NCBI GenBank assembly: GCA_029570375.1 | Contig: JAKPXB010000040.1 | Location: 91,464-155,463 of the forward strand | Direction of reading: 5' to 3' | Source of the DNA: Bacillota bacterium | GTDB taxonomy: Bacteria; Bacillota; Clostridia; Saccharofermentanales; DTU023 | Length of the DNA: 64,000 nt | In this document: positions 26,622 to 60,898 of the stretch, piece by piece | Layout of the letters: each line of letters starts with the position of its first letter | Numbering within the stretch: the first letter of the stretch is position 1 | Position numbers and translations under genes: made by a program | The notes under the pieces: model-generated | What the model was told of the DNA's origin: nothing | Seen by the model: the letters and a program-made list of their open reading frames with translations, nothing else | Database searches by the model: none

Positions 26622-27644
26622 CTATTCTGCGGGGAATCCTTCAAATATTTTATCAAAAAGCGCGTTTATGCTCTGCTGGCTTTCAACAGACAGCTGCTCA
26701 TAGCGCTGCAATAACTCCCGACCGATTTCTGTCAGCGTACTGCTGCCGCCTTCCTGTCCGCCCGGTTTGCGGACGATGACTCTCGCTCCGAGCTGCTCCT
26801 CCAGAAGATTGAGGATCTGCCATCCCTTGCTGTACGAGAGTTTCATCCGAAGGCACGCCGTCCGCACCGACCCCGTCTCATCAATCAGACGCAGTAAAAC
26901 AGCGGGACCCGGGCCGAAGAACACCTTCTCCCGCGCGAGGTTGAGTTTGGGGCGTACACGCATCGGAAGCTTTAACGCCCGTTCATGCTGTGATTCAGCT
27001 CGCTCAAATAAATCCGGATCCCCGATGCTTGACAAAATTCCCTGATCATCGAGTTCCACACGCTCAACCGTTCCGGGCGCGACAGCGACGAGATCAGCGA
27101 AGGTGCGTCCCTTCTCCGCGCGCGCGATACCGCGGACAGCGTCCTTCCGGATGACAATCGGAAGCCCGTCCTCGCCTTCGAAGACCGGTACGGCCACCGT
27201 CGCTTTGGCAACCAGAAGCCTTGACAGCGAATCCGTACTGACGGATGGAACCAGCGGTGTCGCGAGAAAAATCTTCTCACAGTCTTTACACGTTCTGTCA
27301 ATGTAGGAAAGCCCTTTGACGGCGTCATCAAAAACGGAGGTTTTCCGCCAGTGAAGATTGTTGAGGCTCACGACGCTCATCCGCGCGAGATGTTTCTCAA
27401 GCGTCTCGCTCTCGAAACCGGTGATCACCACAATCGGCGCGACACCGGCCATCTGAAAGCGGATAATAATGCGTTCGATAAAGCTGACCTGTCCCGCTTT
27501 TATCATGGCCGGCAGTATCTGCTTGTCTTTGCCCGGATCGGAAATCGCTTCTTCCCGTTCCAGAGGTCTCGACGCGACAATGACAGCCGCGGCGCGCGGC
27601 AGGCTGTCGTTTATATTCAACTGTTTCTCTGTGTTCGCGTTCAT
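26622..27644 (-). CDS. MobA-like nucleotidyltransferase fused to ModE-like winged helix
   Basis: N-terminal AAAVIVASRPLE..KQILPAMIKAGQVSFIERIIIRFQMAGVAPIVVITG; C-terminal LIDETGSVRTACLRMKLSYSKGWQILNLLEEQLGARVIVRKPGGQEGGSSTLTEIGRELLQRY. Confidence 0.82.
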   Translation of the reverse strand: MNANTEKQLNINDSLPRAAAVIVASRPLEREEAISDPGKDKQILPAMIKAGQVSFIERIIIRFQMAGVAPIVVITGFESETLEKHLARMSVVSLNNLHWRKTSVFDDAVKGLSYIDRTCKDCEKIFLATPLVPSVSTDSLSRLLVAKATVAVPVFEGEDGLPIVIRKDAVRGIARAEKGRTFADLVAVAPGTVERVELDDQGILSSIGDPDLFERAESQHERALKLPMRVRPKLNLAREKVFFGPGPAVLLRLIDETGSVRTACLRMKLSYSKGWQILNLLEEQLGARVIVRKPGGQEGGSSTLTEIGRELLQRYEQLSVESQQSINALFDKIFEGFPAE

Positions 27645-27673: not shown

Positions 27674-30247
27674 CTATTTTGCTTTCCTGTAATATGTGTC
27701 CTCCATGGGAAGCGCGGTTCTCATTTTACCGTCCAGCCGGAAGTAGGCGTGCGCGACAGCCGGCGCGATCGGTACACACGCGAGTTCACCCACGCCGCGT
27801 GCTCCATATGCGTGATCGACATACCCGGGACCTTTTACGATATGCGTCTCTATCTCAGGCACCCGGTTCGCACGGAAGAGACCATACGTGCCAAGTCTGA
27901 ATTTCGGAATGCCGCCTTCATTGTTAAAATACTCAGTCAAAGCGTAGCCGAGCCCCATGACACAGCCACCCTCAATCTGCCCTTCGACAGCCTGTATATT
28001 GATCGGCGTCCCGAGATCGTATGCGCCGACCATTTTCCGCAGTTCGCCCTTTCCGTCAATAATGGCTACTTCGCATCCATAGCTGTAACCGACATGGCTG
28101 ACAGGAAATTCCTTTGGGGATCCCATTGGATCTGTCGGCGGACCGAATTCACCGTAATACTCCCGGCCTTCCAGCTTTGCGAGATCGCCGCCCGCCGCCT
28201 CAAGCGCTTCTTTCAGTTTCGCCGCGGCTTGCCGCGTCGCCTCACCGGTCAGAAGCGTCTGCCGGGAGGCTGTGCTCGTGCCGGCGTTGGGAGTGCGGTC
28301 GGTAAAGGGCCTTTCATAGATTGTTCCGGAGACAGGACAGCCTATCGTCTCACACGTGATCGTCGTCACCATCTGGGCGATTCCCTGCCCGGAACAGGCG
28401 GCTGAAGTTCTGATATGAATCTTTCCGCCTTCGACGGACAGAATCGCACGCCCGAAGTCGGGAATTCCGACACCGAGACCGCTGTTTTTGAATCCGCAGG
28501 CAATCCCGGCGTAAGGACTTGACTGATACGCTTCGCGGACTGTTTCCAGACATTCTGCCAGGCCGCAGCTGGCATCGACAATCTGCCCGTTCGGCAGAAC
28601 GTCGCCGGGTCGGACAACGTTCAGGTAGCGGAACTCCCAGGGATCCATGCCTATTTTATCCGCCAGGAGATTGAGGTTGCTCTCGAAAGCGTAACAGCTC
28701 TGCGTAACACCGAATCCCCGAAAGGCGCCGGAGACGACATTGTTCGTATAGACCGCCTTCCCTCTGATATCGACATTCTGGAAGTTATAAGGTCCGCCCG
28801 CGTGCGTACAGGCGCGCTGTGTAACGGGACCGCCAAGCGAGGCGTACGCGCCCGTGTCCGCTACAATGTCCGCGATAAGAGCGGTAAGGCGGCCGGTTTT
28901 GTCGCAAGCGGTCGTCATCTTCATGACCATCGGGTGGCGCTTGGTGTGAACAAGCGTGCTCGTATAGCGGTCAAGTTTTACGTTGACCCGCCTTCCCGTC
29001 TTCCATGCGAGGAGCGCCGCGTGGTGCTGCACGCTCATATCCTCGCGCCCTCCGAACGCTCCGCCGACGAGCCCGGAGCGAATATGAATTTTCCCCTTGT
29101 CCACCTGCAGCATATTCGAAATCTCACGCTGCTCATCGTAGATGGATTGCGAGGCCGTGATCAGGTTGACACCGCCATCGTCCGACGGCCACGCAACCGC
29201 GCACTCGGTCTCCAGAAAGGCATGTTCTTCCCAGGATACCTTGTATGTCTCCGTTACGACATAAGCCGCCTCAGAGACGGCTTTTTCCGCGTCGCCGCGG
29301 ACGAGGCGCTCATTTGAAAGGATATTGCCGCTTTCATGAATCCTGGGAGCGTCTTCTTTCATGGCGTCAAAAGGATCAAGTACCGGCGGCAGCTCCGTGT
29401 AATCGACTTCGATCAGATCGAGAATTTCCTGCAGGCTTTCCTTTTTGCTGGCGGCGGCAAGCGCCACAGCATCTCCGATATAGTGAGTGATGTCCCCTTC
29501 ACGGATCATGACATCCCAGTCCTGGACGATGTGTCCGATTTTATTCTGAGGAACGTCCGCCGCTGTCAGAACAGTCACACAGTCGGGGTGTTGAAGCGCT
29601 TTTGCTATATCGATGCGGTTAACACGCGCCCTCGGATATTTAGACCGGAGTGCCCGGCCGTAGATCATGCCATCAAAGTGGTAATCATCCGGAAATTTCC
29701 CTGTGCCGAGAACTTTTTCCGCTACATCTACGCGGTGGTGCCGATCGCTGAGCGACGCGGTATCGGACTGTTCGGGGATACCCGCTTCCGATCGGAGCAG
29801 GCCGGCGGCTATTTCGATCGCGTCGATAATTTTCTTATATCCTGTACAACGGCAAAGATTTCCGACTAACGCTTTAGCGATCTCACCGCGCGACGGCGCC
29901 GGATTTTTATCGAGTAGCGCTTTAGCGGCCATCACCATTCCCGGCGTGCAGTAACCGCACTGAACGGCCCCCGCTTCGCCGAACGCATACACATACACTT
30001 CTTTCTCACGGGGAGACATGCCCTCAACTGTCGTGATATGCGCGCCGTCATACGCCGATACTTTCTGAAGGCAGGATTTAACCAGTCTGCCATCCGCGAT
30101 CACCGAGCAAGTACCGCACGCCCCTTCACTGCATCCATCCTTCACCGACAAAAGCAGGAGATCATCGCGCAGAAAATCTATCAGACGTTTATCCTGTTCG
30201 ATTGTATAAGCTTGATTGTTAACCGTTACCGTCCACGGCATAATCAT
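27674..30247 (-). CDS. xdhD: Xanthine dehydrogenase-family molybdenum hydroxylase (XdhD-like; [2Fe-2S] and Mo domains in one chain)
   Basis: DGCSEGACGTCSVIADG, QCGYCTPGMVMAAKALL, GNLCRCTGYKKIIDAI; then Mo-domain motifs GGAFGGREDMS, AYGARGVGE; near ygfK/ssnA/ygeY homologues. Confidence 0.88.
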   Translation of the reverse strand: MIMPWTVTVNNQAYTIEQDKRLIDFLRDDLLLLSVKDGCSEGACGTCSVIADGRLVKSCLQKVSAYDGAHITTVEGMSPREKEVYVYAFGEAGAVQCGYCTPGMVMAAKALLDKNPAPSRGEIAKALVGNLCRCTGYKKIIDAIEIAAGLLRSEAGIPEQSDTASLSDRHHRVDVAEKVLGTGKFPDDYHFDGMIYGRALRSKYPRARVNRIDIAKALQHPDCVTVLTAADVPQNKIGHIVQDWDVMIREGDITHYIGDAVALAAASKKESLQEILDLIEVDYTELPPVLDPFDAMKEDAPRIHESGNILSNERLVRGDAEKAVSEAAYVVTETYKVSWEEHAFLETECAVAWPSDDGGVNLITASQSIYDEQREISNMLQVDKGKIHIRSGLVGGAFGGREDMSVQHHAALLAWKTGRRVNVKLDRYTSTLVHTKRHPMVMKMTTACDKTGRLTALIADIVADTGAYASLGGPVTQRACTHAGGPYNFQNVDIRGKAVYTNNVVSGAFRGFGVTQSCYAFESNLNLLADKIGMDPWEFRYLNVVRPGDVLPNGQIVDASCGLAECLETVREAYQSSPYAGIACGFKNSGLGVGIPDFGRAILSVEGGKIHIRTSAACSGQGIAQMVTTITCETIGCPVSGTIYERPFTDRTPNAGTSTASRQTLLTGEATRQAAAKLKEALEAAGGDLAKLEGREYYGEFGPPTDPMGSPKEFPVSHVGYSYGCEVAIIDGKGELRKMVGAYDLGTPINIQAVEGQIEGGCVMGLGYALTEYFNNEGGIPKFRLGTYGLFRANRVPEIETHIVKGPGYVDHAYGARGVGELACVPIAPAVAHAYFRLDGKMRTALPMEDTYYRKAK

Positions 30248-30326
30248 CCCTCATTCAGCTGGTTATGGTCGGCTCTGCGCCGGTGACAACACGCCGGATC
30301 CGTTTTCAATCATGCGGAACGGCAGG

Positions 30327-31730
30327 TTACCGGATATCCGAGTCGGGCAATGCCCTGCGCATGTAGCGGCCGTCTGTATTCTCTGAGATTATTTTACCAG
30401 ATGCGACTTTATGGCTTCCGCGGAGGAACACATCGCGGACTCTTCCTTTCAGGGCAAACCCTTCATACGGCGTGTAGTCGCAGTTGTCGTGGAGCAAATC
30501 AGACGAGACCGTCCATTCGGCGCGGGGATCAAATACAACGATATCGGCGTCGCTGCCCACCTGAAGAATGCCCTTACGTGGAAAGAGTCCGAAGTATTTA
30601 GCAGCATTCGTCGAGGTGACAACGGAAAAGCGATTGATATCCATTCGTCCTCTTACTACGCCATACGCGTACAAAAGGTTCATCCGGAGCTCAATGCCCG
30701 GCGCTCCGTTTGGGATCGCGGAGAAATCATGCCGTCCCATTTCTTTCTGCCCGATAAAATTGAATGAGCAATGGTCAGTCCCGACGAACTGAATTCCGCC
30801 GGACGCGAGTCCCTGCCACAGCGCTTCCTGGTCCCGCCGGTCGCGGAGTGGCGGGCTCATAATATATTTTGCCGCTTCAAAATCATCGCCCTCGGGTGTT
30901 CCGTAACGCGAGTGGTCGAGGAGAAGATATTGCGGACAGGTCTCTACCACCACCTGGTTGCCTCGCTCTCTGGCGCGCAGAATGGAGGACAGGCCGCGCG
31001 CCGTCGACAAGTGAACGATATAGTGATTCGTGTGAAGCAGATACACGACCGTCTCAAGGCGGTCTATCGCCTCCCCTTCGATTTCATCCGGCCTTGTCAT
31101 CTGGTGATAGTACGGTGACAGATGGCCTTCTCCTCTGATACGGCGAGTCAGTAAATCAATCAGAAGACCGTTTTCGCAGTGGAACCCGATGGTCGCGCCG
31201 AGCCGTCCCGCCTCCTCAAGCGCTTCGTAAATGTCATCTTCCTGGACCATCATTCTCCCTTTATAAGCCATATACATCTTAAAGGAAGTAATGCCGCCGT
31301 CGACGACCGAGGCCATTTCCCGCCGCAGGTTCTGGTTCCACTCGGTCATTGCCATATGGAACCCGTAGTCAATGGCTGACTTGCCGTCAGCCTTTTCATG
31401 CCATCGCTCAAGCCCGCGCGCCATGGATTCCCCGTGAAACTGGGTCGCGAAATCAATGACCGTCGTTGTTCCTCCCGCCAAAGCGGAGCGGGTTCCCGAC
31501 CTGAAATCATCAGCCGTCACGGTTCCCATTGACTCGAGATCGAGATGTGTGTGTGTTTCAATTCCGCCCGGCAGTAAATAACACCCGCTGCAGTCGATAA
31601 CTGTCTCGTCTTCCAGAGGCGTCAAATCTCCCAGAGCGATGATTGTCTCGCAACAGATGCGAATGCTGCCTTCGAGCGTCTTTTCGGGCAGCACGATAAA
31701 CCCGTCTTTAAGTAGTATGCTTTTATTCAT
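30327..31730 (-). CDS. hydA: Dihydropyrimidinase/hydantoinase-like cyclic amidohydrolase
   Basis: LLPGGIETHTHLDLES; GGITSFKMYMAYKG (carbamylated Lys site); GTDHCSFN; cluster context. Confidence 0.88.
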   Translation of the reverse strand: MNKSILLKDGFIVLPEKTLEGSIRICCETIIALGDLTPLEDETVIDCSGCYLLPGGIETHTHLDLESMGTVTADDFRSGTRSALAGGTTTVIDFATQFHGESMARGLERWHEKADGKSAIDYGFHMAMTEWNQNLRREMASVVDGGITSFKMYMAYKGRMMVQEDDIYEALEEAGRLGATIGFHCENGLLIDLLTRRIRGEGHLSPYYHQMTRPDEIEGEAIDRLETVVYLLHTNHYIVHLSTARGLSSILRARERGNQVVVETCPQYLLLDHSRYGTPEGDDFEAAKYIMSPPLRDRRDQEALWQGLASGGIQFVGTDHCSFNFIGQKEMGRHDFSAIPNGAPGIELRMNLLYAYGVVRGRMDINRFSVVTSTNAAKYFGLFPRKGILQVGSDADIVVFDPRAEWTVSSDLLHDNCDYTPYEGFALKGRVRDVFLRGSHKVASGKIISENTDGRYMRRALPDSDIR

Positions 31731-31755
31731 TTTGTCATCCGGCCTCAATGATCCT

Positions 31756-33078
31756 TTACAGATTCTTCCAGACCTCTGCCGCGCGCGCTTTCGTGCGATT
31801 GAAGATCTCTTCTTCGTCTACTGTCAGGAGCCGGCGGTCCCTCATGACCATTCTGCCGTTGATCATGACATCGTTTGTCATACGCCCGTATCCGCCGAAC
31901 AGCAGATGTCCTTTCCAGTTGGCGGCGCCGAAAGGCGTGAACGGGTAGTAATCAAGCGTAATAATATCCGCGTAGGCACCCGGTTTCAGCATACCGAGAG
32001 GACGCTTGAAGTGTTTCGCACAGATGGCGGGGTTTCCCTCGTACTGCAATTGCAGCGCCTGCCCGAAACCGACGGTAGGGTTGGACAGCCTGTATGACTG
32101 AAGAATCTTAGAAACCTTGACGGATTCGAACATATCATGCGTATAGGCGTCTGTACCCATTCCGAGCCGGATGCCGCGGCTGAGCATACCGAGCACGGGC
32201 GTCGCGCCGACCGCATTCCCCATATTCGACATGGGATTATGGACGACCGAGGTATCCGTCTCAGCCAGAATATCGAGCTCCCGGCCATTGACGTGAACGG
32301 CGTGAACCGCAATCGACTTCGGGCCGAGTATCCCCCAGTTGAGCAGGCGCTCCACTACACGGCAATCGTATTTCTGAAGGCTGTCGTACTGGTCTTCGCG
32401 CCCTTCGCCCACATGGACATGATAACCCGCGTCAATCCCCGCCATTGACTCGGCGATTTTTTCCATCGTCCTGTCAGAAATGGTAAAAGACGCGTGCATG
32501 CCGAACATGCCTTTGATCATATCCTGATCATCTGTATTCATCGCCTTAATGAAATCGATGTTCTCTTTGATTTCCGCGTCTGTGATCGCTTCGCCGTCAC
32601 GGTCGGATACTTCCATAGAAAAAGAGCCTCGGATACCGATCTCCCCGGCGGCGGCGGCGAGAACAAAAAGCGAGCCCTGGGCGGCGTGCGGACTTGCGTG
32701 GTGGTCAAACAGCGTCGTCACGCCATTGCGGATACTGTCTATGTATGTCGTATAAGCCGACAGTTCACAGTCTTCAGTAGTCAGGCTCCTGTCAAGCGTC
32801 CACCAGAGATTCTCCAGAATTTCCGGGAAATTGCGCGTTGGCCGTGAGACCCCCATGCCGCGGGCGTAAGAACTGTAGATGTGGGTATGGGCATTGATCA
32901 TGCCGGGCATGATCACGCGGCCGCCGACATCAATCACTTCATCCTCGGGGAACCGCTCCTTTAACTCCTCGAAGCTGCCGACTTCTTCTATTATCTCTCC
33001 GACGACGCGGACAGCGCCCTGTTCATAGTAGAGATTTTTCTCGCAGTTCGTAACTAGTCTTCCGTTACCAATAATCAT
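31756..33078 (-). CDS. ssnA: Putative aminohydrolase SsnA
   Basis: MPGMINAHTHIYSSYARGM; AVHAVHVNGRELDILAETDTSVVHNPMSNMGNAVGATPV; LGMGTDAYTHDMFES. Confidence 0.87.
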   Translation of the reverse strand: MIIGNGRLVTNCEKNLYYEQGAVRVVGEIIEEVGSFEELKERFPEDEVIDVGGRVIMPGMINAHTHIYSSYARGMGVSRPTRNFPEILENLWWTLDRSLTTEDCELSAYTTYIDSIRNGVTTLFDHHASPHAAQGSLFVLAAAAGEIGIRGSFSMEVSDRDGEAITDAEIKENIDFIKAMNTDDQDMIKGMFGMHASFTISDRTMEKIAESMAGIDAGYHVHVGEGREDQYDSLQKYDCRVVERLLNWGILGPKSIAVHAVHVNGRELDILAETDTSVVHNPMSNMGNAVGATPVLGMLSRGIRLGMGTDAYTHDMFESVKVSKILQSYRLSNPTVGFGQALQLQYEGNPAICAKHFKRPLGMLKPGAYADIITLDYYPFTPFGAANWKGHLLFGGYGRMTNDVMINGRMVMRDRRLLTVDEEEIFNRTKARAAEVWKNL

Positions 33079-33193
33079 TTGGACCTCCTGATCTTTCGGC
33101 TTTCAGACTGCCGCTTTCTTCTCGCCGGCCTGAATCATCGTGAGGAAAGCCGGTCGAGTATCGTATCTCCGTCATCCAACAAGCCGGCAGCTG

Positions 33194-36100
33194 CTAATCT
33201 TGCCGGCTATGGTAATCTTCATTTAAGATCCACGGCGCTTTCTTTTCGACTGCGGCGATGACCGCGCGCATCTTCGGATCGAGATCAGCGCCTTCAACAC
33301 CTGTATCGAATACGCGCCCCCTCTCATCACGGATCCTGTACATCGATTCCGACAGCTTAAGGAACCCGCTGTTTTCCGAACTCGCAAAATCTTCTTCACT
33401 CCAGAAGGCTGTCAGCTTGTTTTTGTACGGTTTACCCGCGTGCGGACAGAATGTAGCACAGTTCCCGCACTCATTGCACATCCCGTCGATGTGAATAATC
33501 TGCTCGCTGTTATCAAAGCCTTCGACTGAAACGGCCGTATTGGCGCGGTTCGGGCAGACCTCCGTGCAAACACGGCAGATCTGGCCGCAGATCAGACAGC
33601 GGCTGCCCTCTTCTTCGGGAGTTTCCCGCGGTTCAGCCAGTTGACCGCGTCTGCCGATGATCACCTCGTCATCGACCGGAACCTGGACGGAATCGAAATC
33701 ATGCTCCAGCTTTTCCCTCGCCAGAATGCCGAGCGCGGCTTTCTTCGCGTCGCCCATGGCGCTGACAATCGTTGAAGGTCCCCGACGGCAGTCGCCGATG
33801 ACATACACGCCGTCGATCGACGATTCCATCGCGTCTGAGACATACGGTACTCCGTTACTGTCAAGAGCCAGTCCCCAATCCCCGAACAGCGTACCGTCGA
33901 CCCGCGCGCCTGTCGCACCGATCACAGTATCAAATTCAAGCGTTTCGAATTCCCCTGTCCCGAGACAAGCCCGGCGCCCGGATTCGTCAAATCCGCTGAG
34001 GCGCTGTTTCTCACAAACCAGTTTCCTGCCATCGTAACTGACCGGAGCGAGCAGATCACGCCACGCGACACCTTCGGCCATCGCCTGATCGAACTCATCC
34101 TGGCTCGCCGGAGCATACATCTCTGTACGCCGGTATACGATCGTCACTTCAGGCGATCCGGGCATGCGTCTGGCGAGACGCGCGCAGTCCATGGCGACAT
34201 CGCCCGCGCCGACAACCGCGACGCGTTTCCCGAGGTCTCGCGGACCTTCCTCATGGACAGAGAGCAGGAAATCAAGAGAGTCGACCACGAGTTCCCTTCC
34301 TTCCGAAACGGGTGAGCGTCCCTCCGCCCACGCCCCGACAGCCAGAACAATGTAGTCGTATTTTTTCTTCAGCGCGTCAGGATGCAAACGCGGATCAGCG
34401 TTAAAATGGAATTGAACGCCGGCCGCTTTGGCCAGCGCGAGGTCGCGGTCGATCTGTTCCTTCGAGATTCTGAACGAAGGGATGGCATAGCGCACAATTC
34501 CGTGTGAATCCGCTCTCTTTTCGAACACATCCGCGCGGACTCCGTTCCTCGCGAGATAGTAAGCCGCGGCCACACCCCCCGGACCCGCTCCGATGACGCA
34601 GACTTTCTTGTCGGTTCGCGCCGGTTTTGGGTGTATTCCGGTTGTGATGCGATCCTGTGCCTCGTCCGCCGCTTTCTTTTTAATGTCCCGCATATGGAGC
34701 GGAATATCGTAATCCAGGCGCGTACAGCGCGTACGGCAGGGTTGCGCACAGAGAACGCCTGTAATCGTCGGGCAGGCGTTATCGATCGCGATCACGCGCA
34801 TAGCTTCTTCGTATTCTCCAAGGGCAACGAGCGTGTTGTACGCGGGGATCTGCTGCCCGATAGGACATCCGCCTTCTTGGCACGGCGCTTTATAACAATC
34901 GTAAAGCGGGAGTTCGGAATCCGTTTTTCGCGACCAGACCTTCTCCCGCCGGCGCTTCTGCACGCGCGGGCCGGCGAGGATAGATTCTGTCAGTTTCTCC
35001 AGTTTCGCGACATCCACGTCGTTGTTCTCATTCCCCAAAAAGGATTCTGATTCTTTCGCCATTTGACCGAATCGCGCATACCCGCCCGGTTTGAGCAAGG
35101 TTGTTGCCACCGTCACGGGACCAATGCCCGTCGCCAGAATATCCGCCACTCCGAGTGCATCGGCTCCGCCCGCAAACGAGATCGGTAGTTTGCCGTTGAA
35201 CGCCTTCGACAGTTTCAGCGCCAGACTGATGGTCAGCGGGGTCAATGCGCGCCCCGACATGTACATCTCTTCGGAGGGCACTTCGTTTCTTTTCACGTCG
35301 ACCGGGCATGTATTCGACAATTTCACGCCGAATGAGAGGTTATTCGCGGCGCTTATCTCGAGCATGCGCCCGAAGATACCTTTCGCGTCTTCGAACTGGA
35401 GATCCTCCAGGAAATGCTTATCGGGGAATACAATATAATCGTACCCGAGTTTGTCGAGCGTTTCTCTGACGAAATCGTACCCGAGCATCGTGGGGTTGCA
35501 TTTGACGAAAGTATGACAATGCTTCTCCGTCAACAGGTAATGCGCGATTCTTTCAATCTCAGCCGGCGGACAGCCGTGCAGTGTGGACAGCGTAATCTGA
35601 CTGCATATGACGGGTGGGATGGCGTCAATCACCGCTTCATCGACGCGCTCAAATAAGCGCAGATGTCTTCTCAGAAAAGCGATGCTCTCTTTGAAAACCG
35701 GTGTATCCGAAGCGTCTTTCAACCCTTCGATAAATGCATCCATTTTGGGAAGTTTTATCCCTTCGAGATCGTAACCGACACTCATGTTAAATGCGAAATC
35801 GCAGCCGTCGGAGATTCCGAATTCGACGGCAAGCACTTTAATGGCGATCCACGCTTTGATGTACTCATCAAATGCTTCTTCGACGGTCAGCTCCGTTGAC
35901 CACTCACAGTTATAACATTCATCTTCCGCGTTGATACAGGGTTTGGCGACCGCGTGCCTGATCACCTCGCCGTCCATTTTCTGAACTGTTTTAAGTTCAA
36001 TAAAACGAGCGCCCGCAAGATACGATACGATTATATTCTGTGCGAGCTGCGAATGCGGACCGGCAGCAGGACCGACTGCTGACGCGATCTTATCGCCAAA

Positions 36101-36247
36101 TGGCGTATGATAACGGCCCTCCGTCCGTGTGAAGTAGAATTTGCTCTTGTCGAGACCAAACACCCGACCACTTTCTCTGTACTCCCGAAGGCTCCAGCCG
36201 ATAAGATTGGCGAAGCTGATAGGTCTCATAATATCGCTCATATTCAA
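33194..36247 (-). CDS. ygfK: YgfK-like putative selenate reductase / NAD(P)-flavin-FeS oxidoreductase
   Basis: N-terminus MSDIMRPISFANLIGWSLREYRESGRVFGLDKSKFY; GltD-like ACPTITGVLCAQPCRTRCTRLDYD, VCVIGAGPGGVAAAYYLARNG; C-terminal ferredoxin CNECGNCATFCPHAGKPYK. Confidence 0.92.
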   Translation of the reverse strand: MNMSDIMRPISFANLIGWSLREYRESGRVFGLDKSKFYFTRTEGRYHTPFGDKIASAVGPAAGPHSQLAQNIIVSYLAGARFIELKTVQKMDGEVIRHAVAKPCINAEDECYNCEWSTELTVEEAFDEYIKAWIAIKVLAVEFGISDGCDFAFNMSVGYDLEGIKLPKMDAFIEGLKDASDTPVFKESIAFLRRHLRLFERVDEAVIDAIPPVICSQITLSTLHGCPPAEIERIAHYLLTEKHCHTFVKCNPTMLGYDFVRETLDKLGYDYIVFPDKHFLEDLQFEDAKGIFGRMLEISAANNLSFGVKLSNTCPVDVKRNEVPSEEMYMSGRALTPLTISLALKLSKAFNGKLPISFAGGADALGVADILATGIGPVTVATTLLKPGGYARFGQMAKESESFLGNENNDVDVAKLEKLTESILAGPRVQKRRREKVWSRKTDSELPLYDCYKAPCQEGGCPIGQQIPAYNTLVALGEYEEAMRVIAIDNACPTITGVLCAQPCRTRCTRLDYDIPLHMRDIKKKAADEAQDRITTGIHPKPARTDKKVCVIGAGPGGVAAAYYLARNGVRADVFEKRADSHGIVRYAIPSFRISKEQIDRDLALAKAAGVQFHFNADPRLHPDALKKKYDYIVLAVGAWAEGRSPVSEGRELVVDSLDFLLSVHEEGPRDLGKRVAVVGAGDVAMDCARLARRMPGSPEVTIVYRRTEMYAPASQDEFDQAMAEGVAWRDLLAPVSYDGRKLVCEKQRLSGFDESGRRACLGTGEFETLEFDTVIGATGARVDGTLFGDWGLALDSNGVPYVSDAMESSIDGVYVIGDCRRGPSTIVSAMGDAKKAALGILAREKLEHDFDSVQVPVDDEVIIGRRGQLAEPRETPEEEGSRCLICGQICRVCTEVCPNRANTAVSVEGFDNSEQIIHIDGMCNECGNCATFCPHAGKPYKNKLTAFWSEEDFASSENSGFLKLSESMYRIRDERGRVFDTGVEGADLDPKMRAVIAAVEKKAPWILNEDYHSRQD

Positions 36248-36427
36248 TACCTTCCCTTTTCTGACAATCCCGTGCCATCCGCGGCATCCGGGACGAGATC
36301 CTGCGCGTTCACGATGTCTTGCTACTATATTAACAGTTATTGGTGAATTTTTATCCGTTTTATTCTCAATTTAACCAGATATGAGAAAGGGGACGGCAAA
36401 TTGTGAAAGAAACAGCCGGATGATAAA

Positions 36428-36459
36428 AAGCCGGGGTTCCCCTGAGCGAACCCCGGCTT
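36428..36459 (-). terminator. Intrinsic terminator downstream of ygeY, before ygfK
   Basis: AAGCCGGGGTTC...GAACCCCGGCTT perfect arms; minus-strand 3' flank TTTTATCA. Confidence 0.85.
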
Positions 36460-36479
36460 CTGCTGTCAGACCAGCTGAC

Positions 36480-37715
36480 TTACGCGTTATCTTCTCTTGT
36501 GATGTCCATATAGAGCGTCGGCATCACGCTGTAGATGGCGGCACATCGGACGAGATCTTCTTTCCAGGTGATTTCGTTCGGCGCGTGTGCCTGTTCCTCC
36601 TTGCCGGGACCGAGCCCGATGGTAGGGATGCCGTGGCGTCCCATTATCGCAACGCCGTTCGTCGAGAAGGTCCATTTGTCCACTTTCGGCGCTCCGTACA
36701 GAGTCGTGTAGGCCTTGACAAGCGCTTTTGTCTGAGGCGCGTCTTCAGGGATCACCCACGTCGGGAAATAGCAGTCCTGTACGTAGATTTCTCCGGTCCA
36801 TGACGGGCGGTCATACTTGTACATGCTGACCTTCGCGCCCCATTTTTTGACAGAGGGCAGGTCTTCAATTTCCTTCAGGGCTGACAAATATGTCTCCCCG
36901 TCCGTCAGGCGGCGGTCAAGCGAAATGGCGCAGCTGTCGGCGACAGCGCAGCGTGAGGGCGATGTGTAGAAAATCTGTGACACGGTGACGGTTCCCTTGC
37001 CGAGGAACGCGTCGTAATGCAGTCGTTCGTTCAGTTGTTCAACCTCTTTGATAATATCAGCCATTTTGTAGATGGCGTTCTCCCCGCGTTCAGGCGCGGA
37101 ACCGTGGCAGGAAATACCGAGAACGTCCACACGGATCTCCATGCGTCCGCGATGGCCGCGGTACACGTGCATATTGGTCGGTTCTGTCGAAACGACGAAT
37201 TCGGGGCGGATGCCGCTCTTTTCAATGATATAGAGCCAGCACATGCCGTCACAGTCTTCTTCCTGTACCGTACCGGTGACAAGCATCTGATACTCATCGG
37301 AAAGGAGCCCCAGGTCTTTGGCCATTCTGGCCCCGTAAACGGCTGACACAATACCGCCGAGCTGATCGGAGGCGCCCCGCCCGCCGATTTCCGTCTCGTT
37401 CTCATACCCTTCATAGGGATCGAACTTCCAGTTGGAAATCTCGCCGATGCCGACGGTATCGATATGGCCGTCAAAAGCGATAAGGCGCTTGCCGGTTCCC
37501 ATCCATCCGAGAACATTCCCGAGCGGATCGATCTCTGCTCTGTCGAAACCGAGCTTTTCCATCTCCTCTTTGATGCGCTTTGATTTGCCTTCCTCTCCGC
37601 AGCTCTCTCCGCCGATTCTAATCAGATCACGCAGAAAGCGGACCATGTCTTCACGGTAGCTCACGGCCAGTTCTCTGACGCGGTCATAGTCAATTTGAGT
37701 GTTTGTCATATGCAT
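36480..37715 (-). CDS. ygeY: YgeY-family selenium-metabolism-linked hydrolase (M20 peptidase-like)
   Basis: [46 protein letters not shown]; cluster context. Confidence 0.9.
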
Positions 37716-37738
37716 GTTCTCCTTATACTCTTCAATTG

Positions 37739-37793
37739 CTCAGGTTTTGATGCCTGAGAGGCTGTCTAACGCTCCTTCGGTAAGTTAGACAGC
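37739..37793. promoter_or_regulatory. Two adjacent hairpins between ygeW and ygeY
   Basis: CTCAGG-TTTTGATG-CCTGAG (37739-37758) and GCTGTCTAAC...GTTAGACAGC (37761-37770/37784-37793). Confidence 0.6.
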
Positions 37794-37813
37794 TTTCTCT
37801 TCCCGGATTCGGA

Positions 37814-39010
37814 TCAGGCGTTATCCGCCCATCGGGGCGCAGCGCCCTTCCAGAGTTCATCCAGTTTCGCGGCGGGATGCTTGACCTTCTGAAGGAAAAT
37901 CATCGCGGCGATAATGTAAGGCTTAAAGCTCGCCTGTTTGTAGAGGGGGACGCGGTAACGGTCAAACACCGATCCGTCCACTTCTCCTTCCGCGCAGGAT
38001 ACGCCGGTAATGTCGGCCGGCAGACAGTGCAGATAGAGCGCGCGGCCATCCCTGGTCAGTTTCATCATCTCTTCCGAGCATGTCCAGTTTTTATAGCGGG
38101 CGTTCTGTGCGAGCAGTTCTTTCTCGAGTGCGTCGATACCGGCTTTGTCACCTTTCGCGTAAAGATCCGTACGGATTTCCATCGCCCTGAAAGGCGCCCA
38201 GCTCTTCGGATAAACGATATCCGCGTCTTTAAAGGCCTCTTCCATTGATGTCACACGCGTGAATCTGCCACCGTACTGCTCTTCGTTATGCTTCGCCACC
38301 TCTTCCATCGTATCCATGATCTCATACCCCTCGGGGTGCGCGAGCACGACGTCCATGCCGAAACGGGTCATCAGGCCGATCACACCCTGCGGAACGGAGA
38401 GGGGTTTGCCGTAGGAGGGCGAATAAGCCCATGTCATCGCGACCTTCTTGCCCCTCAGGTTTTCGACACCGCCCAGTTCATGAATCACGTGAAGCGTATC
38501 CGCCATGATCTGCGTGGGGTGGTCGATATCGCACTGAAGATTTACCAGCGTCGGACGCTGTTCGAGAACGCCGGTTTCGTAGCCCTCCTTGACATAATCG
38601 GCGACATTTTTCATATAGGTATGGCCTTTGCCGATGTACATGTCGTCACGGATTCCGATGACATCCGCCATAAAAGAGATCATGTTGGCAGTCTCTTTGA
38701 CCGTCTCCCCGTGGGAGATCTGCGACTTGCCCTCATCGAGATCCTGAACCTCAAGGCCGAGCAGGTTGCACGCGGAGGCAAATGAGAAACGTGTTCTCGT
38801 CGAGTTGTCGCGGAACAGTGAAATAGCGAGCCCCGAATCGAAGATGCGTGCGCTCCTGTTATTTTCGCGAAGTGCCCGTAAAGCGTCAGCCACCGCGAAA
38901 ATAGCCATAATCTCGTCTTGTGTTTTGTCCCATGTCAGGAAAAAATCGTTCTGATACAGTTCCCGGTAATCGCAGCTTTCCAGCTGATCGATGAGATGTT
39001 TAAAATCCAT
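37814..39010 (-). CDS. ygeW: YgeW-type carbamoyltransferase
   Basis: LFRDNSTRTRFSFASACNLLGLEVQDLDEGKSQISHGETVKETANMISFMADVIGIRDDMYIGKGHTYMK; LHCLPADI; start MDFKHLIDQLES at 39010. Confidence 0.92.
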   Translation of the reverse strand: MDFKHLIDQLESCDYRELYQNDFFLTWDKTQDEIMAIFAVADALRALRENNRSARIFDSGLAISLFRDNSTRTRFSFASACNLLGLEVQDLDEGKSQISHGETVKETANMISFMADVIGIRDDMYIGKGHTYMKNVADYVKEGYETGVLEQRPTLVNLQCDIDHPTQIMADTLHVIHELGGVENLRGKKVAMTWAYSPSYGKPLSVPQGVIGLMTRFGMDVVLAHPEGYEIMDTMEEVAKHNEEQYGGRFTRVTSMEEAFKDADIVYPKSWAPFRAMEIRTDLYAKGDKAGIDALEKELLAQNARYKNWTCSEEMMKLTRDGRALYLHCLPADITGVSCAEGEVDGSVFDRYRVPLYKQASFKPYIIAAMIFLQKVKHPAAKLDELWKGAAPRWADNA

Positions 39011-39059
39011 ACGTATCTCTTTCCTCTCTAATCTGGAATCTCTCGTCCGCACCCGTCAT

Positions 39060-40535
39060 TTATTCCATCGCGGCGAGAACACCCGTGCGCTCATTGAACG
39101 CCGTAATCAGTTCGTCAATCTCATGCACCTGATCGTGAATACCCGTCCAGTAATGCTCGTCGTACCACTGGGCGTTCAGTTCCTTCACGGTGCGCCCCTG
39201 CTGCTCGACCCATGTGTAGTATTTAAGATTGTGCACGCGTTTACGTGAGCGGTACGTAAACTCCTCCATATTATCTGTCGTAACCGACGCGAGATAGCGC
39301 CAGTAGTCGCGGGACGCAAGCGCAGGCGTATAGGGTTCGGCTTCCTCGAGCTCCGCGATACGGGATTTGTACATCTCGGAAGAGTCCGTCGCGACGGTGC
39401 CGATCACATCGTCCTTCGTGAATTCAAAGTATTTGGCCAGTTTGATGCTCCCGAGCACGTTGGCAATTCCGCTGATGCCGAGCAGAGGCAGCAGATCCAG
39501 AAAACCGGCGGAAACGCCTGTTTCGCGGATGAGGAGCTCGCGCCCGATTTCCGTATTGAACAGACGGAGCAGATTCTGTGAGTTGTTATCGTCGAGGGCG
39601 CAGACGACATCCGTGTTCTTGACATTGTGGACAAACGGAACATGTTTATCCCCGATCCCCTCGATGCGGTGAGCGCCGAAGCCGTTATTCAAAATGGTGG
39701 GGCACTGCAGAGCCTCGCCAACCGCCAGTTTCAGCCGCGGATACTGCTCTTTCAGGTAATCACCGGCGCTCAGCGAACCGCCGCTGCCGCTTGTGAAAAA
39801 AGCCGCCGCGAATCTCGAAGCCGGCGTCGCCAATGACTCATATACTTCCTGCATCGCGGGTCCTGTGACGTGGAAATGCCAGAGGACGTTTCCCATCTCT
39901 TCAAACTGGTTGAAAATGACAGCGTCCGGACGCGTTCTCCGGAGTTCCCAGACCTTGTCGAAGATCTCTTTGACATCGCTTTCGCAGCCGGGAGTCGCGA
40001 TTGTTTCATCCGCGATGTTCAAAAGCCACTCAAAACGCTCCCGGCTCATGCCTTCGGGCAGGATCGCGATCGATTTGCAGCCGAGCAATTTTGAGTTAAA
40101 GGCACCGCCCCGGCAGTAGTTTCCCGTTGACGGCCAGACAGCTCTGTTTTGGTAGGGATCGAACTGCCCGGTGACGAGACGCGGCACAAGACATCCGAAC
40201 GAAGCGCCGACTTTGTGGCATCCCGTCGGGAACCATTTGCCGATCATCACGAAAATGCGCGCGTCGACTCCCGTGAGCTCACTCGGAATTTCGATATAGT
40301 TGACGCCGCCATAGCCGGCGCCGTTGAGATTGGGCTCGTTTTTCCATGTGATGCGGAACAGGTTCAGAGGATTGATATCCCATGTACCGACGTTCTTCAA
40401 TCTCTTTTTGATTTTATCCGGAACCTTATTGACAGGATCGCGCAGCTGCGCAAAAGTCGGAATAACAATATTGTTCTCGCGCGCACGTTTTACCGCGTTC
40501 TCAAGCGCTTCACGGTGGATCGTCAGATCGATCAT
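39060..40535 (-). CDS. Fold-type II PLP-dependent enzyme (cysteine synthase-like / YgeX-position protein)
   Basis: Start MIDLTIHREALENAV with AGGAGA RBS at 40535; GCHKVGASFG (likely PLP Lys), STGNYCRGGAFNSKLLGCKSIAILPEGMSRERF, TSGSGGSLSAGDYLKEQYP; ORF track start 40682 lies upstream of the RBS. Confidence 0.82.
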   Translation of the reverse strand: MIDLTIHREALENAVKRARENNIVIPTFAQLRDPVNKVPDKIKKRLKNVGTWDINPLNLFRITWKNEPNLNGAGYGGVNYIEIPSELTGVDARIFVMIGKWFPTGCHKVGASFGCLVPRLVTGQFDPYQNRAVWPSTGNYCRGGAFNSKLLGCKSIAILPEGMSRERFEWLLNIADETIATPGCESDVKEIFDKVWELRRTRPDAVIFNQFEEMGNVLWHFHVTGPAMQEVYESLATPASRFAAAFFTSGSGGSLSAGDYLKEQYPRLKLAVGEALQCPTILNNGFGAHRIEGIGDKHVPFVHNVKNTDVVCALDDNNSQNLLRLFNTEIGRELLIRETGVSAGFLDLLPLLGISGIANVLGSIKLAKYFEFTKDDVIGTVATDSSEMYKSRIAELEEAEPYTPALASRDYWRYLASVTTDNMEEFTYRSRKRVHNLKYYTWVEQQGRTVKELNAQWYDEHYWTGIHDQVHEIDELITAFNERTGVLAAME

Positions 40536-55896: not shown

Positions 55897-56197
55897 CCGT
55901 CCGGCGGCAAGTTTCCGCTCCCTAATATCCGTAGTCGACGAGGTGATAGTATTGCTTGTTCCGGCTAAGCGCCCATTGTTTCTGGTATTGCCGCATCGCT
56001 TCGCGGTCGAACAGCGCGCGGTTCGCTCCCGCTGAAACGGGAACACTCTCTGCGATCCCAGAGGTGCTTTTGTCTTTGGCGATAGCGGAAAGTTTCACGC
56101 CGCACCATGACAGGCGCTCACATTTTTGCTAACAGACCCGTAATCTTGTATGATAAGACTCAGGCAAGTGCCGAATACACGACAAGGAGGTGCGATC

Positions 56198-57241
56198 ATG
56201 TCTGACTCAAAGATTCGTCTTACCGCGTTGACCAAAGCAGGCGGCTGAGGATCGAAAATAGGACCGGCGGTCCTATCGGAGCTTCTTTCCGGATTGCCAA
56301 AGGTGGCAGATGAACGCTTACTTGTCGGTTATAGTTCTGACGACGACGCGTCTGTCTACCTCGCGTCAGAGGAAATCGCGATTATCCAGACGATTGATTT
56401 CTTCCCTCCTGTCGTCGACGACCCTTACGATTTCGGACGTATTGCGGCCGCGAATGCGATCAGTGACATTTACGCGATGGGTGCCACGCCGAAGACAGCG
56501 TTGAATCTGCTCTGCTTCTCAAACTGCCTCGATTTCTCGGTCGTGCGCAGAATTCTCGAAGGCGGAGCGGACAAGTGCATGGAAGCCGGCGTCGTCATCG
56601 CCGGGGGGCACAGCATCGAGGATGAGGAACCGAAATACGGACTCTCGGTCATGGGACTTTGCCATCCTGATAAAATCAGGCGCAATGACACACCGCGGCA
56701 CGGCGACGCGCTCGTCCTGTCGAAGCCGCTCGGCACAGGAGCACTGACAACGGGAGCTAAAGCTAACCTCGTCGAACCTGAAAACATACGTATCATGCTG
56801 GAGACGATGGCTCGGCTTAATAAAAATGCCTGTGAGGCGTCTCTTCCGTTTGACGTATCGGCTTCAACCGATGTGACCGGGTTCGGCCTAATCGGACACG
56901 CGGCGGAAATGGCAGGACAGGACAACCGGGTGACCCTCGTTCTGGAGAGCACGCGTATTCCGCTCCAGCCTCAGGCGATCGAACTGGCAACAGACGGTAT
57001 CCTCCCCGCCGGCGCTTACCGCAACCGCCATTTCGTCGCGGACCGTGTGTCTTTCGCCGACAGCGTGCCGCTCGCCCTGTCAGACCTGATGTTTGATCCG
57101 CAGACATCAGGCGGCCTTCTCCTCGCGATGCGCGAAGAAGATGTGGAACCCTACAGCGCGGCTGTACGGGACCGAGGCGAAGAAGTCTGGCGCATTGGCA
57201 AAGTCCTCCCCTGGGAAGGGATCCCCATCAGGGTGATCTGA
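56198..57241 (+). CDS. selD: Selenophosphate synthetase, selenocysteine-containing (TGA at 56246-56248 read as Sec17)
   Basis: AAGGAGG RBS; reading through TGA gives MSDSKIRLTALTKAGGUGSKIGPAVLSELLSGLPKVADERLLVGYSSDDDASVY; ORF track starts late at 56294 in the same frame (348 codons incl. stop). Confidence 0.93.
56249..56280 (+). promoter_or_regulatory. Bacterial SECIS-like hairpin downstream of the selD UGA
   Basis: ATAGGACC-GGC-GGTCCTAT (56258-56265 / 56269-56276) perfect 8-bp stem, GG in apical loop 18-19 nt after the UGA. Confidence 0.82.
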
Positions 57242-57455
57242 CCGGCCATCCGCGCCGCCCCCTATTTTCATCTACAGCTGACTGTTGTCAATCCGGGATC
57301 ACACGCCATCCTTCACCGGTTTTTGTGCGCATCTGGATAAACTTTCAGCGGATCGGATGTTTCATGAATGCCCGGTGAGGCGATGGGCGTTTGTCATCAC
57401 GGCATCCAGTGAATAAATGACGCCTACTAATTGAAATTTGAACAAAGGAGATTCT

Positions 57456-58562
57456 ATGAAAAAGAAAAACATTATCGCTGTTGTCGTGACAGGAGTTCTG
57501 CTCGGTTTTGCCGGCGTTTTCCTGATGACGAAGGGCAACCCGGGGAACATGGGTTTCTGTATCGCCTGTTTCCTGCGCGACACGGCAGGTGCGCTCAAGC
57601 TGCACACGGCGCCTGTGGTGCAGTACGTAAGACCCGAGATTATCGGATTCATCTTCGGATCATTTCTGATTTCACTGATCACGCGCGAATTCCGCGCGCG
57701 CGGAGGTTCCTCGCCTCTCACACGTTTCTTCCTCGGCTTCATGGTCATGATCGGCGCGCTCGTCTTCCTCGGATGCCCGCTCCGGATGGTCCTGCGCATG
57801 GCCGCGGGCGACCTGAACGCCTGGATCGGGCTCGTCGGATTCGTCGGGGGAATCTTTATCGGAACACTGTTCCTGCGCAAAGGATTCTCGCTCGGGAGAA
57901 CATATGAGAAAAATCCCCTTGAAGGGGCGCTCATCCCCGTTCTTCAGATACCTCTCTTTATCATGCTGGCCGTCAGCTCGCCTCTCCTCGCTTTCTCCGA
58001 GAAGGGTCCTGGCTCCATGCACGCAAGCATCTGGATTTCCATCGCACTGTCCCTGGTGATCGGTATCGCCGCCCAGCGCTCGCGTATCTGTCAGGCCGGC
58101 GGATTCCGCGATCTGATCATGCTGAAAGATTTCCACCTCTTCTGGGGCAACGCCGCCATCCTCGGCGTCGCGCTCGTCTATAACCTGATCAACAAGAGCT
58201 TCACGCTCAGCCTCTACCACCAGCCCGTCGCTCACAGCCAGTGGGTCTGGAATATACTCGGTATGGTTGTCGTCGGCCTCGGCTCTGTCCTGCTCGGAGG
58301 CTGTCCCATGCGCCAGCTCGTCCTGACGGGCACAGGCAATGTCGACTCCGGGATCACCGTCCTGGGCCTGATCGCCGGCGCGGCCTTCGCTCACAACTTC
58401 GGCCTTGCCTCCGGTCCTGACGCGTATGAAGAAGGAACAAATGTCGTCACCGGCGGCGGAACGACACCCAACGGAAGAATAGCGGTCATTGTCTGCCTCG
58501 TCATCATGCTTGTGATCGGCATCGCCTACACGAAAAAGAACCTGAAGAGTAAAAAGGCTTAA
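57456..58562 (+). CDS. yedE: YedE-like putative selenium transporter
   Basis: MKKKNIIAVVVTGVLLGFAGVFLMTKGNPGNMGFCIACFLRDTAGALKLH; AQRSRICQAGGFRDLIM; LLGGCPMRQLVLTGTGNVDSG; flanked by selD and yedF-like. Confidence 0.9.
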   Translation: MKKKNIIAVVVTGVLLGFAGVFLMTKGNPGNMGFCIACFLRDTAGALKLHTAPVVQYVRPEIIGFIFGSFLISLITREFRARGGSSPLTRFFLGFMVMIGALVFLGCPLRMVLRMAAGDLNAWIGLVGFVGGIFIGTLFLRKGFSLGRTYEKNPLEGALIPVLQIPLFIMLAVSSPLLAFSEKGPGSMHASIWISIALSLVIGIAAQRSRICQAGGFRDLIMLKDFHLFWGNAAILGVALVYNLINKSFTLSLYHQPVAHSQWVWNILGMVVVGLGSVLLGGCPMRQLVLTGTGNVDSGITVLGLIAGAAFAHNFGLASGPDAYEEGTNVVTGGGTTPNGRIAVIVCLVIMLVIGIAYTKKNLKSKKA

Positions 58563-58687
58563 GATCAATCCGGTAAGACAGGCCTGCGCCAACTTATCCC
58601 GGCGGCAGGCGATACGAAGAAAACAGCGCGGAAGGCCTGCCGACAGCATTAAATGAAATCCGCGCCGGTTAGAAAGTGAGAAAAACG

Positions 58688-58894
58688 ATGAAAACTGTTG
58701 ATACAAGAGGACTTTCATGCCCTGAGCCTGTACTCATGGTGAAACAGGCGATCGCCGAAGGAGAATTCCCCTTTGTCGTTCTCGTCAGCGACGAGACACC
58801 GAATGAAAATATCCGCCGCTTTGCCTCAAGCAAGGGCTGTACATTCGACGTTGTCGAAGAAGACGGCGAATACAAATTCACGTTCACAAAGTAG
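58688..58894 (+). CDS. yedF: TusA/YedF N-domain-like sulfur/selenium carrier
   Basis: MKTVDTRGLSCPEPVLMVKQAIAEGEFPFVVLVSDETPNENIRRFASSKGCTFDVVEEDGEYKFTFTK (CPxP motif). Confidence 0.88.
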   Translation: MKTVDTRGLSCPEPVLMVKQAIAEGEFPFVVLVSDETPNENIRRFASSKGCTFDVVEEDGEYKFTFTK

Positions 58895-58954
58895 TTACTT
58901 ACAGAATAACAGCAGCGCCGGCGGCTTCATCTCTCCGCCGGCGCTGCCGGCCAC

Positions 58955-59218
58955 ATGAGCATGACTGTGAGGCAGACGATGCACTATATAGCGACATTCT
59001 ATACGCATTTCGGCGCTCTCTCATTTCTGAAGCGCTTACGCGATCTGGGTGACAGCGAGGCAGCCATGATGCCCGCTCCGCGGAGATTGTCTGTCTCCTG
59101 TGGCTCAGCCGTCCGGTTTTCGCTGGACTTTGATGAGACGACGATGCCGGATGACGATACGGAAAGCGTTTACCGGATCGAAAAGGATGAATACATCGAG
59201 GTCTTCTCCAACCGCTGA
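58955..59218 (+). CDS. DUF3343-like putative Se/S carrier
   Basis: MHYIATFYTHFGALSFLKRLRDLGDSEAAMMPAPRRLSVSCGSAVRFSLDFDE; start may be 58979. Confidence 0.82.
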   Translation: MSMTVRQTMHYIATFYTHFGALSFLKRLRDLGDSEAAMMPAPRRLSVSCGSAVRFSLDFDETTMPDDDTESVYRIEKDEYIEVFSNR

Positions 59219-59411
59219 TACCGCCCTGTCCATATTTGCTATGATGGGATCAATACCAACATCACCGAAGAGGTGCCCGCGCTTCTTCCGCTGTCTTATT
59301 CTCCCTCTATAATCGGAGAGGGACGTGTGTTTTGATCAGCGGAACAGCCGCCGTACCGTTCGCGGTTTTAATAACCGCCGACGGATCCATATAGAAACCG
59401 AGGTCTACCGT

Positions 59412-60848
59412 ATGATCATACAAAATCTTTCCGACCTGCCCAAAGTGGATGAATTCATCCGCGACGATCGCCTCGCCAGCGCCATGGAAACATTTGGCTA
59501 TACACCGACGCTGAATGCGGTCCGGGCGGTCATCGACGACGCGCGGCAATCCATACGCTCCCGCTGTCAGCCGGCGCTGGCGGTTCCTGATTATTCACCG
59601 CTCACGCGGGATGAATTGATTGAGAGAGTGTTTGGCAGGCTGGAGCGGGAGTCAAAACCGGGAATTTATCCGGTGATCAACGCGACCGGAGTAATTCTGC
59701 ACACAAACCTCGGGCGCGCTCCTCTTGCGGAGGCAGCCGCAGAGGCTGTCCACCGGGCGGTCTCCACCTACAGTTCCCTTGAGTTCGATTTCGAACACAA
59801 GTCAAGAGGAAACAGAAACAGCCACATCGAGAAATTACTGTGCAGGCTTCTGAACGTTGAAGCGTCTATTGTCGTCAATAACAACGCGGCAGCGGTCATG
59901 CTCGCACTCTCGGCGCTCGCCAGAAACCGGGAAGTGATCGTCTCCCGAGGCGAGCTCGTTGAGATCGGCGGATCGTTCAGAATTCCGGAAATCATAGAGG
60001 AAAGCCAGGCGCTCCTGCGGGAAGTCGGGACAACGAACCGGACTCACCTACAGGATTATGAGCGCCTGATCGGCCGGGAGACGGCGGCTATACTCAAAGT
60101 GCACACCAGCAATTTTCGTCTGATCGGCTTCACCGAATGCGTTAAGACCGCAGACTTGGCAGACCTCGCGCATAAAAACGACCTCCCATTCATCTACGAC
60201 CTCGGAAGCGGGTGTCTGTCGGAACAGCTCGCCGCGCTGTTCCCGGATGAACCGACAGTCGCGTCCGCGATTGCCGATGGGGCTGACGTCATTTGTTTTT
60301 CCGGCGATAAACTGCTCGGCGGGCCTCAGGCCGGGCTTATTGTGGGAAAGGAGCGGTACCTTTCCTCCATGCGCACACACCCTCTCCTGCGAGCTTTCCG
60401 ATGCGGTAAAATGACATTAACCGCCCTCGAACAGACACTGCGGCTGTATTTTGATGAAGAGAAAGCGCACCGGCTGCTCCCTGTTCTTTCGATGGCGCTC
60501 GTCGATCCCACCGCGCTCAGGCAGCGCACGGAGGCTTTCGCGGAGAAATTGAAGGAAACCGGAATCCGGGCCTCTGTTGAGCCGTCAGGCATGACGATGG
60601 GCGGCGGGACAACACCGGAATATTACATCGATTCATTCGCCTGCGTTATTGATCCGGCGTTGAACAGCGGTACCCCGTCCCCGTCAGCGATAGAATCAAA
60701 ACTGCGCGACTGCTCTCCGCCGGTCGTCTGCCGTCTCGTGAAAGACAAACTGTATTTTGATCTGCGGACGGTGCGGGAGGAAGAAGAGGCTTCGCTCATC
60801 GGCTGTCTCTTGCGCGCCGTAAGAGGCGCGGTTCCCGGAACGGACTGA
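59412..60848 (+). CDS. selA: L-seryl-tRNA(Sec) selenium transferase
   Basis: GIYPVINATGVILHTNLGRAPLAEAA; RGELVEIGGSFRIPEIIEES; LREVGTTNRTHLQDYE; FSGDKLLGGPQAGLIVG. Confidence 0.96.
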   Translation: MIIQNLSDLPKVDEFIRDDRLASAMETFGYTPTLNAVRAVIDDARQSIRSRCQPALAVPDYSPLTRDELIERVFGRLERESKPGIYPVINATGVILHTNLGRAPLAEAAAEAVHRAVSTYSSLEFDFEHKSRGNRNSHIEKLLCRLLNVEASIVVNNNAAAVMLALSALARNREVIVSRGELVEIGGSFRIPEIIEESQALLREVGTTNRTHLQDYERLIGRETAAILKVHTSNFRLIGFTECVKTADLADLAHKNDLPFIYDLGSGCLSEQLAALFPDEPTVASAIADGADVICFSGDKLLGGPQAGLIVGKERYLSSMRTHPLLRAFRCGKMTLTALEQTLRLYFDEEKAHRLLPVLSMALVDPTALRQRTEAFAEKLKETGIRASVEPSGMTMGGGTTPEYYIDSFACVIDPALNSGTPSPSAIESKLRDCSPPVVCRLVKDKLYFDLRTVREEEEASLIGCLLRAVRGAVPGTD

Positions 60849-60898
60849 TCAACGGCAGAAGCCTGACATCTTAACGCCATAGACAATGGAGAAAAACT

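Follow-up and report, generated by a model that had tools for sequence, protein, structure and literature searches.

The reductive uric acid pathway was reportedly solved in 2025, and its use for lowering human urate levels is under discussion. In E. coli, the core of the pathway consists of a xanthine dehydrogenase-type protein (XDH), YgfK, SsnA, HyuA, YgeW and YgeY, and the last step belongs to YgeX, which splits 2,3-diaminopropionate (DAP) (PMC12507026). Both enantiomers of DAP, D and L, are substrates of E. coli YgeX (cited in PMC12507026), and the stereochemistry of the pathway intermediates is an open question (PMC12990295). Swaps of single pathway enzymes (UacX, UacY and the F420 type) have already been described (PMC12507026; comment in PMC12990295), and they concern YgfK, YgeW and XDH (PMC12507026). 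A swap of YgeX was not found described in the literature on pathway variants, to which our access was limited, so that a prior description is possible. Together with five other genes, ygeX serves as a marker for uric acid clusters (PMC12542679), and in a neighbourhood survey YgeX was assigned by PF00291 (PMC12507026). The protein considered here, PLPq, matches PF00291 as well; because PF00291 covers both proteins, such a survey would not separate PLPq from YgeX.

A reductive uric acid operon with PLPq as its first gene

The window, i.e., the whole stretch of 64,000 nucleotides analysed here, contains seven co-directional genes on the minus strand (27674-40535) in the order PLPq-YgeW-YgeY-YgfK-SsnA-HyuA-selenium-dependent XDH (Table 1). 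XDH, YgfK, SsnA, YgeW and YgeY score above their own NCBIfam cut-offs, and HyuA scores above the cut-off of the dihydropyrimidinase model. All six core genes of the reductive uric acid cluster are therefore present, the same set as in the described pathway variants (PMC12507026, PMC12990295), and the difference is that YgeX was not found in the window genome. The preliminary description had allowed for a true ygeX elsewhere in the genome; in the assembly, which measures 1.73 Mb and is 95.6% complete, there was no match to TIGR01747, and the three PALP proteins that it encodes are PLPq, the threonine-synthase-like F1 and an OrtB-like protein, none of them a YgeX. Besides PLPq, no further CysK-like protein was present among these PALP proteins. 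The OrtB-like protein adjoins a dehydrogenase resembling 2,4-diaminopentanoate dehydrogenase, both named by sequence resemblance. At the other end of the cluster, the 340-aa protein resembles, by eye, a nucleotidyltransferase of the MobA type that carries a ModE-like domain. The window gave no hits in Rfam and tRNA scans.

A 491-aa fold-type II PLP enzyme had been placed beside ygeW from the first inspection, and the reading frame bears this out: on the minus strand it runs from an ATG at 40535 to a stop codon ending at 39060, giving 491 aa, and YgeW lies 7 bp downstream. An AGGAG Shine-Dalgarno sequence is found about 9 nt upstream of this ATG, and the PLPq homologues begin at the same Met. 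Because of this site and the shared Met, a longer 540-aa ORF with a GTG start was ruled out as the gene. Both motifs singled out in the preliminary description are present as well. HKVGA had been proposed to hold the likely PLP lysine, and K108 is aligned with K46 of Arabidopsis OASS (1z7w/1z7y), the lysine mutated in 1z7y ‘K46A’; STGNYCRGG occupies residues 136-144. Across 55 PLPq homologues, distant ones included, the invariant residues are K108, T137-G138-N139, Q210, G250-S251, G253 and T383-D384.

Table 1. Features of the operon, of PLPq and of the partner enzyme F1. Positions refer to the window, except for residues of PLPq and for F1.
Feature	Position	Strand	Description
PLPq	39060..40535	minus	491-aa fold-type II PLP enzyme, CysK/CBS branch; first gene of operon
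PLPq K108	residue 108		predicted PLP lysine
PLPq STGNY	residues 136-140		predicted substrate-carboxylate loop
PLPq GSGG	residues 250-253		predicted PLP-phosphate loop
YgeW	37814..39052	minus	knotted carbamoyltransferase; TIGR03316 760 bits, cut-off 500
YgeY	36480..37715	minus	M20 hydrolase; TIGR03526 641 bits, cut-off 321.5
YgfK	33194..36247	minus	reductase; TIGR03315 1275 bits
SsnA	31756..33078	minus	aminohydrolase; TIGR03314 519 bits, cut-off 455.5
HyuA-type	30327..31748	minus	dihydropyrimidinase/D-hydantoinase; TIGR02033 560 bits
XDH-type	27674..30247	minus	selenium-dependent, candidate uric acid reductase; TIGR03311 1240 bits
340-aa protein	26622..27644	minus	cluster end; kept there in relatives L046, L047, L137, L143, L144
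F1	G000:C40:25125-26342		second PLP enzyme, threonine-synthase-like; ~65 kb outside window

PLPq forms a clade beside CysK and outside YgeX

YgeX (E. coli b2871) and PLPq are both fold-type II PLP proteins, and the genes of both adjoin ygeW and ygeY in the cluster of the same pathway, but the resemblance does not go much further. On the YgeX models TIGR03528 and TIGR01747, PLPq scores 10.4 and 12.5 bits against cut-offs of 532.25 and 274, and the sole good alignment with E. coli YgeX, a protein of 398 aa, is a local stretch of 46 aa at 35% identity. The TDGNH motif that is invariant in YgeX is not in PLPq, which has STGNY there with T137 invariant and so lacks the Asp of that motif, Asp120 in E. 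coli YgeX. In a tree of 57 fold-type II proteins, in which long branches elsewhere make the deeper joins unsure, PLPq is a distinct group beside CysK/CysM within a CysK+PLPq clade (support 100/99), and YgeX forms a separate clade (100/100). The phylogeny called for at the outset thus sets PLPq apart from YgeX, and the models together with the tree rule it out as a divergent YgeX.

That PLPq is more like cysteine synthase than like YgeX, as had been suggested, agrees with its best models, CysK and CBS (TIGR01139, TIGR01137), which are the nearest to it by profile, sequence and fold. The motifs held in common are the PLP lysine, the (S/T)(S/T)GN loop, Q-F and H-x-I-x-GIG. The AlphaFold model of PLPq (pLDDT 94) finds its best Foldseek matches in yeast CBS and bacterial CysK, most of the top matches having a TM by target of 0.76-0.86, over an aligned core of about 340 residues; judged from the lengths, about 75 N-terminal and 95 C-terminal residues would lie outside this core, probably as helical extensions. 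The matches to the model include the solved hydrogen-sulfide-producing enzymes Fn1055 and Fn1220. Enzymes of this kind act by beta-elimination, and the usual chemistry of CysK/CBS enzymes is beta-replacement. Nevertheless, PLPq reaches 81.7 bits against a cut-off of 350.95 on the cysK model and 65.5 bits against 510.25 on the CBS model, is 25% identical to E. coli CysK over 268 columns, has HKVGA instead of SVKxR, sits with uricolytic genes and forms its own clade. Model cut-offs and gene setting together rule it out as a plain CysK.

PLPq largely alternates with YgeX in genomes that carry YgeY

Relatives of PLPq are encoded in at least 586 genome stretches. The best-scoring 80 of these, which are the named loci and not a random draw, are at least 60% identical and come from Bacillota, Chloroflexota, Synergistota, Spirochaetota, Bipolaricaulota and one deltaproteobacterial MAG. 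Co-occurrence was counted in the 50 genomes of these loci and in a sample of 236 Clostridia genomes that includes the window genome; the counts ignore relatedness, and many of the genomes are incomplete MAGs. In the Clostridia sample, YgeY is present in 7/7 genomes with PLPq versus 13/229 others (P 1e-8, kinship ignored). Eighteen of these genomes have YgeY above the cut-off, and among them nine carry YgeX only, six PLPq only, one both and two neither (P 0.013). The genome with both, G077, has a divergent and unlinked PLPq (L127:8823-10202) that is about 33% identical, adjoins transporter and rubrerythrin-like genes away from the genome's YgeX-type uricolytic cluster, and possibly has a different function. 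Among the 50 named PLPq genomes, a YgeY match was found in 46, over the cut-off in 43, and YgeX is missing from 40. The remaining 10 carry YgeX too, so one-for-one replacement of YgeX by PLPq is not the whole story. There are also single genomes off this pattern: G009 has PLPq without YgeY, and two from the same genus as the window genome, G001 (contig C10) and G005 (C19), have a longer YgeY variant (~595 bits) and neither PLPq nor YgeX.

Neighbours at the 80 loci were annotated by tblastn; clustering of longest ORFs was dropped, these being often antisense ORFs in GC-rich loci. PLPq is accompanied by F1 in 53 of the loci, by YgeW in 42, by YgeY in 41, and by SsnA or YgfK in 10-11. In many loci, the knotted YgeW gives way to a shorter carbamoyltransferase, about 310 aa long and with 33-37% identity to E. 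coli YgeW (L066, L068, L076, L098, L100-L102, L106, L108, L112, L115, L118, L125, L126); the hosts are Halanaerobiales, Synergistota, Chloroflexota, Bipolaricaulota and some Clostridia.

F1 is a near-constant partner of PLPq

A second PLP enzyme, F1, was found genome-wide at 414 bits or more in 43 of the 50 PLPq genomes. It was absent from all 11 YgeX-only genomes, where one match of 298 bits resembles ordinary ThrC. In the 236 Clostridia genomes it is present in 6/7 with PLPq versus 1/229 others (G155, a partial match). At 47 of the 80 loci F1 lies less than 1 kb from PLPq. Away from PLPq, it adjoins SsnA-YgfK-XDH (L180-L185) or YqeA-YgeW (L189-L192), and in the genus of the window genome it adjoins an ABC transporter that is BMP-type by sequence. 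The F1 locus of the window genome (L135:9602-16786; C40:25-32 kb) holds genes for a BMP-type lipoprotein, an ABC ATPase and two permeases, and a RidA-like gene, and by its gene content is probably the transport and detoxification part of the same purine regulon. YgeX is present in three of the seven PLPq genomes that lack F1 (G286, G297 and G311) and in 7 of the 43 that have it; G278, G283, G301 and G305 have neither a strong F1 match nor YgeX. There is a hint in this that F1 and YgeX are alternatives among PLPq genomes.

In the tree F1 falls on the ThrC/dehydratase side, it resembles ThrC structures, and with 198-207 bits it exceeds the cut-off of 167 on the threonine synthase model TIGR00260. 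Its profile E-value to YgeX is 5.5e-16, closer than the 2.4e-6 of PLPq. In ThrC, the arginine of NPxR binds phosphate. Whereas solved ThrCs have NPYR or NPHR, F1 has NPYL or similar, and it differs further in having SVGDGCTI for PVGNAGNI and ADSI for TAxxI. F1 is found with PLPq and purine genes. Because the NPxR arginine typical of ThrC is missing, F1 probably does not serve as a housekeeping threonine synthase, a role also made unlikely by its gene setting and by how rarely it occurs in genomes that lack PLPq.

A proposed two-enzyme module in place of YgeX

Observed here are the operon, the lack of YgeX, the clade of PLPq, its conserved catalytic elements and its co-occurrence with YgeY and F1; from these we infer the substrate of PLPq, the elimination chemistry and the division of work between PLPq and F1. 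In the reading that we prefer, to which we give about an even chance, the two PLP enzymes form a module that takes over from YgeX in the last step of the reductive uric acid pathway. YgeW and YgeY would remove the ureido groups to yield DAP; PLPq would form an external aldimine with it via K108, bind the alpha-carboxylate with its STGNY loop, and expel the beta-amino group as ammonia, leading through aminoacrylate to pyruvate. F1 would carry out this reaction on the opposite enantiomer of DAP, or accept or finish the product. Because E. coli YgeX uses D- and L-DAP, a split of one enzyme per enantiomer is attractive, and because RidA hydrolyses 2-aminoacrylate, the RidA-like gene in the F1 locus fits an elimination. 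The work may also be divided otherwise, as between a racemase and a lyase, or with PLPq carrying out the beta-replacement usual in its branch; the lyase may be either PLPq or F1, and in the latter case PLPq would be a racemase or a beta-replacement enzyme.

The preliminary description had taken PLPq for a non-orthologous enzyme of the DAP step. What stands of this is that PLPq is CysK-like, lies outside the YgeX clade, largely alternates with YgeX among YgeY-carrying Clostridia and occurs in a genome where no true YgeX was found; what is in doubt is that PLPq itself eliminates ammonia from DAP. Since F1 is its near-obligate partner and 10 of 50 genomes have YgeX besides PLPq, the proposal is better put as a two-enzyme module for the step. 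The same ten genomes, seven of which also have F1, count against the module, as do G001, G005 and G009 with their departures from the pattern and the beta-replacement that is usual for CysK/CBS enzymes; and F1, being nearer to YgeX by profile, could be the lyase.

That F1 is indeed the DAP ammonia-lyase replacing YgeX, and PLPq performs another PLP-dependent step on the same intermediate, such as racemisation of D-DAP to the enantiomer that F1 can use or formation of cysteine from DAP and sulfide, is possible but doubtful. It is in keeping with the profile and tree position of F1, with its lack of the ThrC-typical arginine, with the beta-replacement branch to which PLPq belongs, and with the three genomes where YgeX stands in for F1; the four PLPq genomes with neither strong F1 nor YgeX, some of them maybe incomplete, argue against it, as do the YgeX-only uricolytic genomes, which do without PLPq, so that an extra step is not always needed. 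We think it improbable that PLPq, with F1, belongs to a neighbouring branch that merely co-occurs with uricolysis, such as direct cleavage of albizziin (2-amino-3-ureidopropionate), a branch for another ureido acid or diamino acid, or the salvage of purine nitrogen into amino acids, DAP being handled by an unrecognised enzyme. The scarcity of SsnA and YgfK at loci where F1, YgeW and YgeY are common, the seven genomes with PLPq, F1 and YgeX together, and the shorter carbamoyltransferase at many loci would suit this, but the way PLPq and YgeX nearly exclude each other among genomes with YgeY, and the place of PLPq directly before YgeW in the window operon, would not. A divergent cysteine synthase or CBS of ordinary sulfur metabolism might be expected from the nearest sequences and folds and from the lack of another CysK-like protein in the window genome; the score far below the cysK cut-off, the separate clade with its terminal extensions, the ordinary CysK-like proteins carried alongside by related genomes, and the tie of PLPq to YgeY and F1 make this very improbable.

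If the module of PLPq and F1 does the job of YgeX, many uric acid degraders are overlooked or mislabelled: the distribution suggests that many lack ygeX and use the PLPq/F1 pair instead, and surveys at domain level would miss them or label PLPq as YgeX. As far as sequence can tell, this would be a known pathway in a new form, built around a family of enzymes that is as yet uncharacterised. The chemistry of PLPq and F1 on the DAP enantiomers may bear on the stereochemistry of the intermediates (PMC12990295). A two-step route for DAP, in which PLPq would, for instance, invert the stereocentre or carry out a beta-replacement before F1 performs the elimination, is a tentative proposal with a chance well below even; if true, the chemistry that concludes anaerobic purine catabolism varies across a large group of bacteria spanning several phyla.

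Selenium genes in the window

No tRNA-Sec was found by the tRNA scan of the window. The ORF of the selD gene (56195-57241, plus strand) is interrupted by an in-frame TGA where the catalytic residue is expected (KAGG-U-GSKIGP). SelD is therefore probably a selenoprotein, and automatic gene calling would set its start too late. It is followed on the same strand (57438-62797) by genes for a YedE-like membrane protein and by selA-like and selB-like genes, named by resemblance. About 16 kb separate this selenium and selenocysteine machinery from the uricolytic operon, which is itself selenium-dependent.
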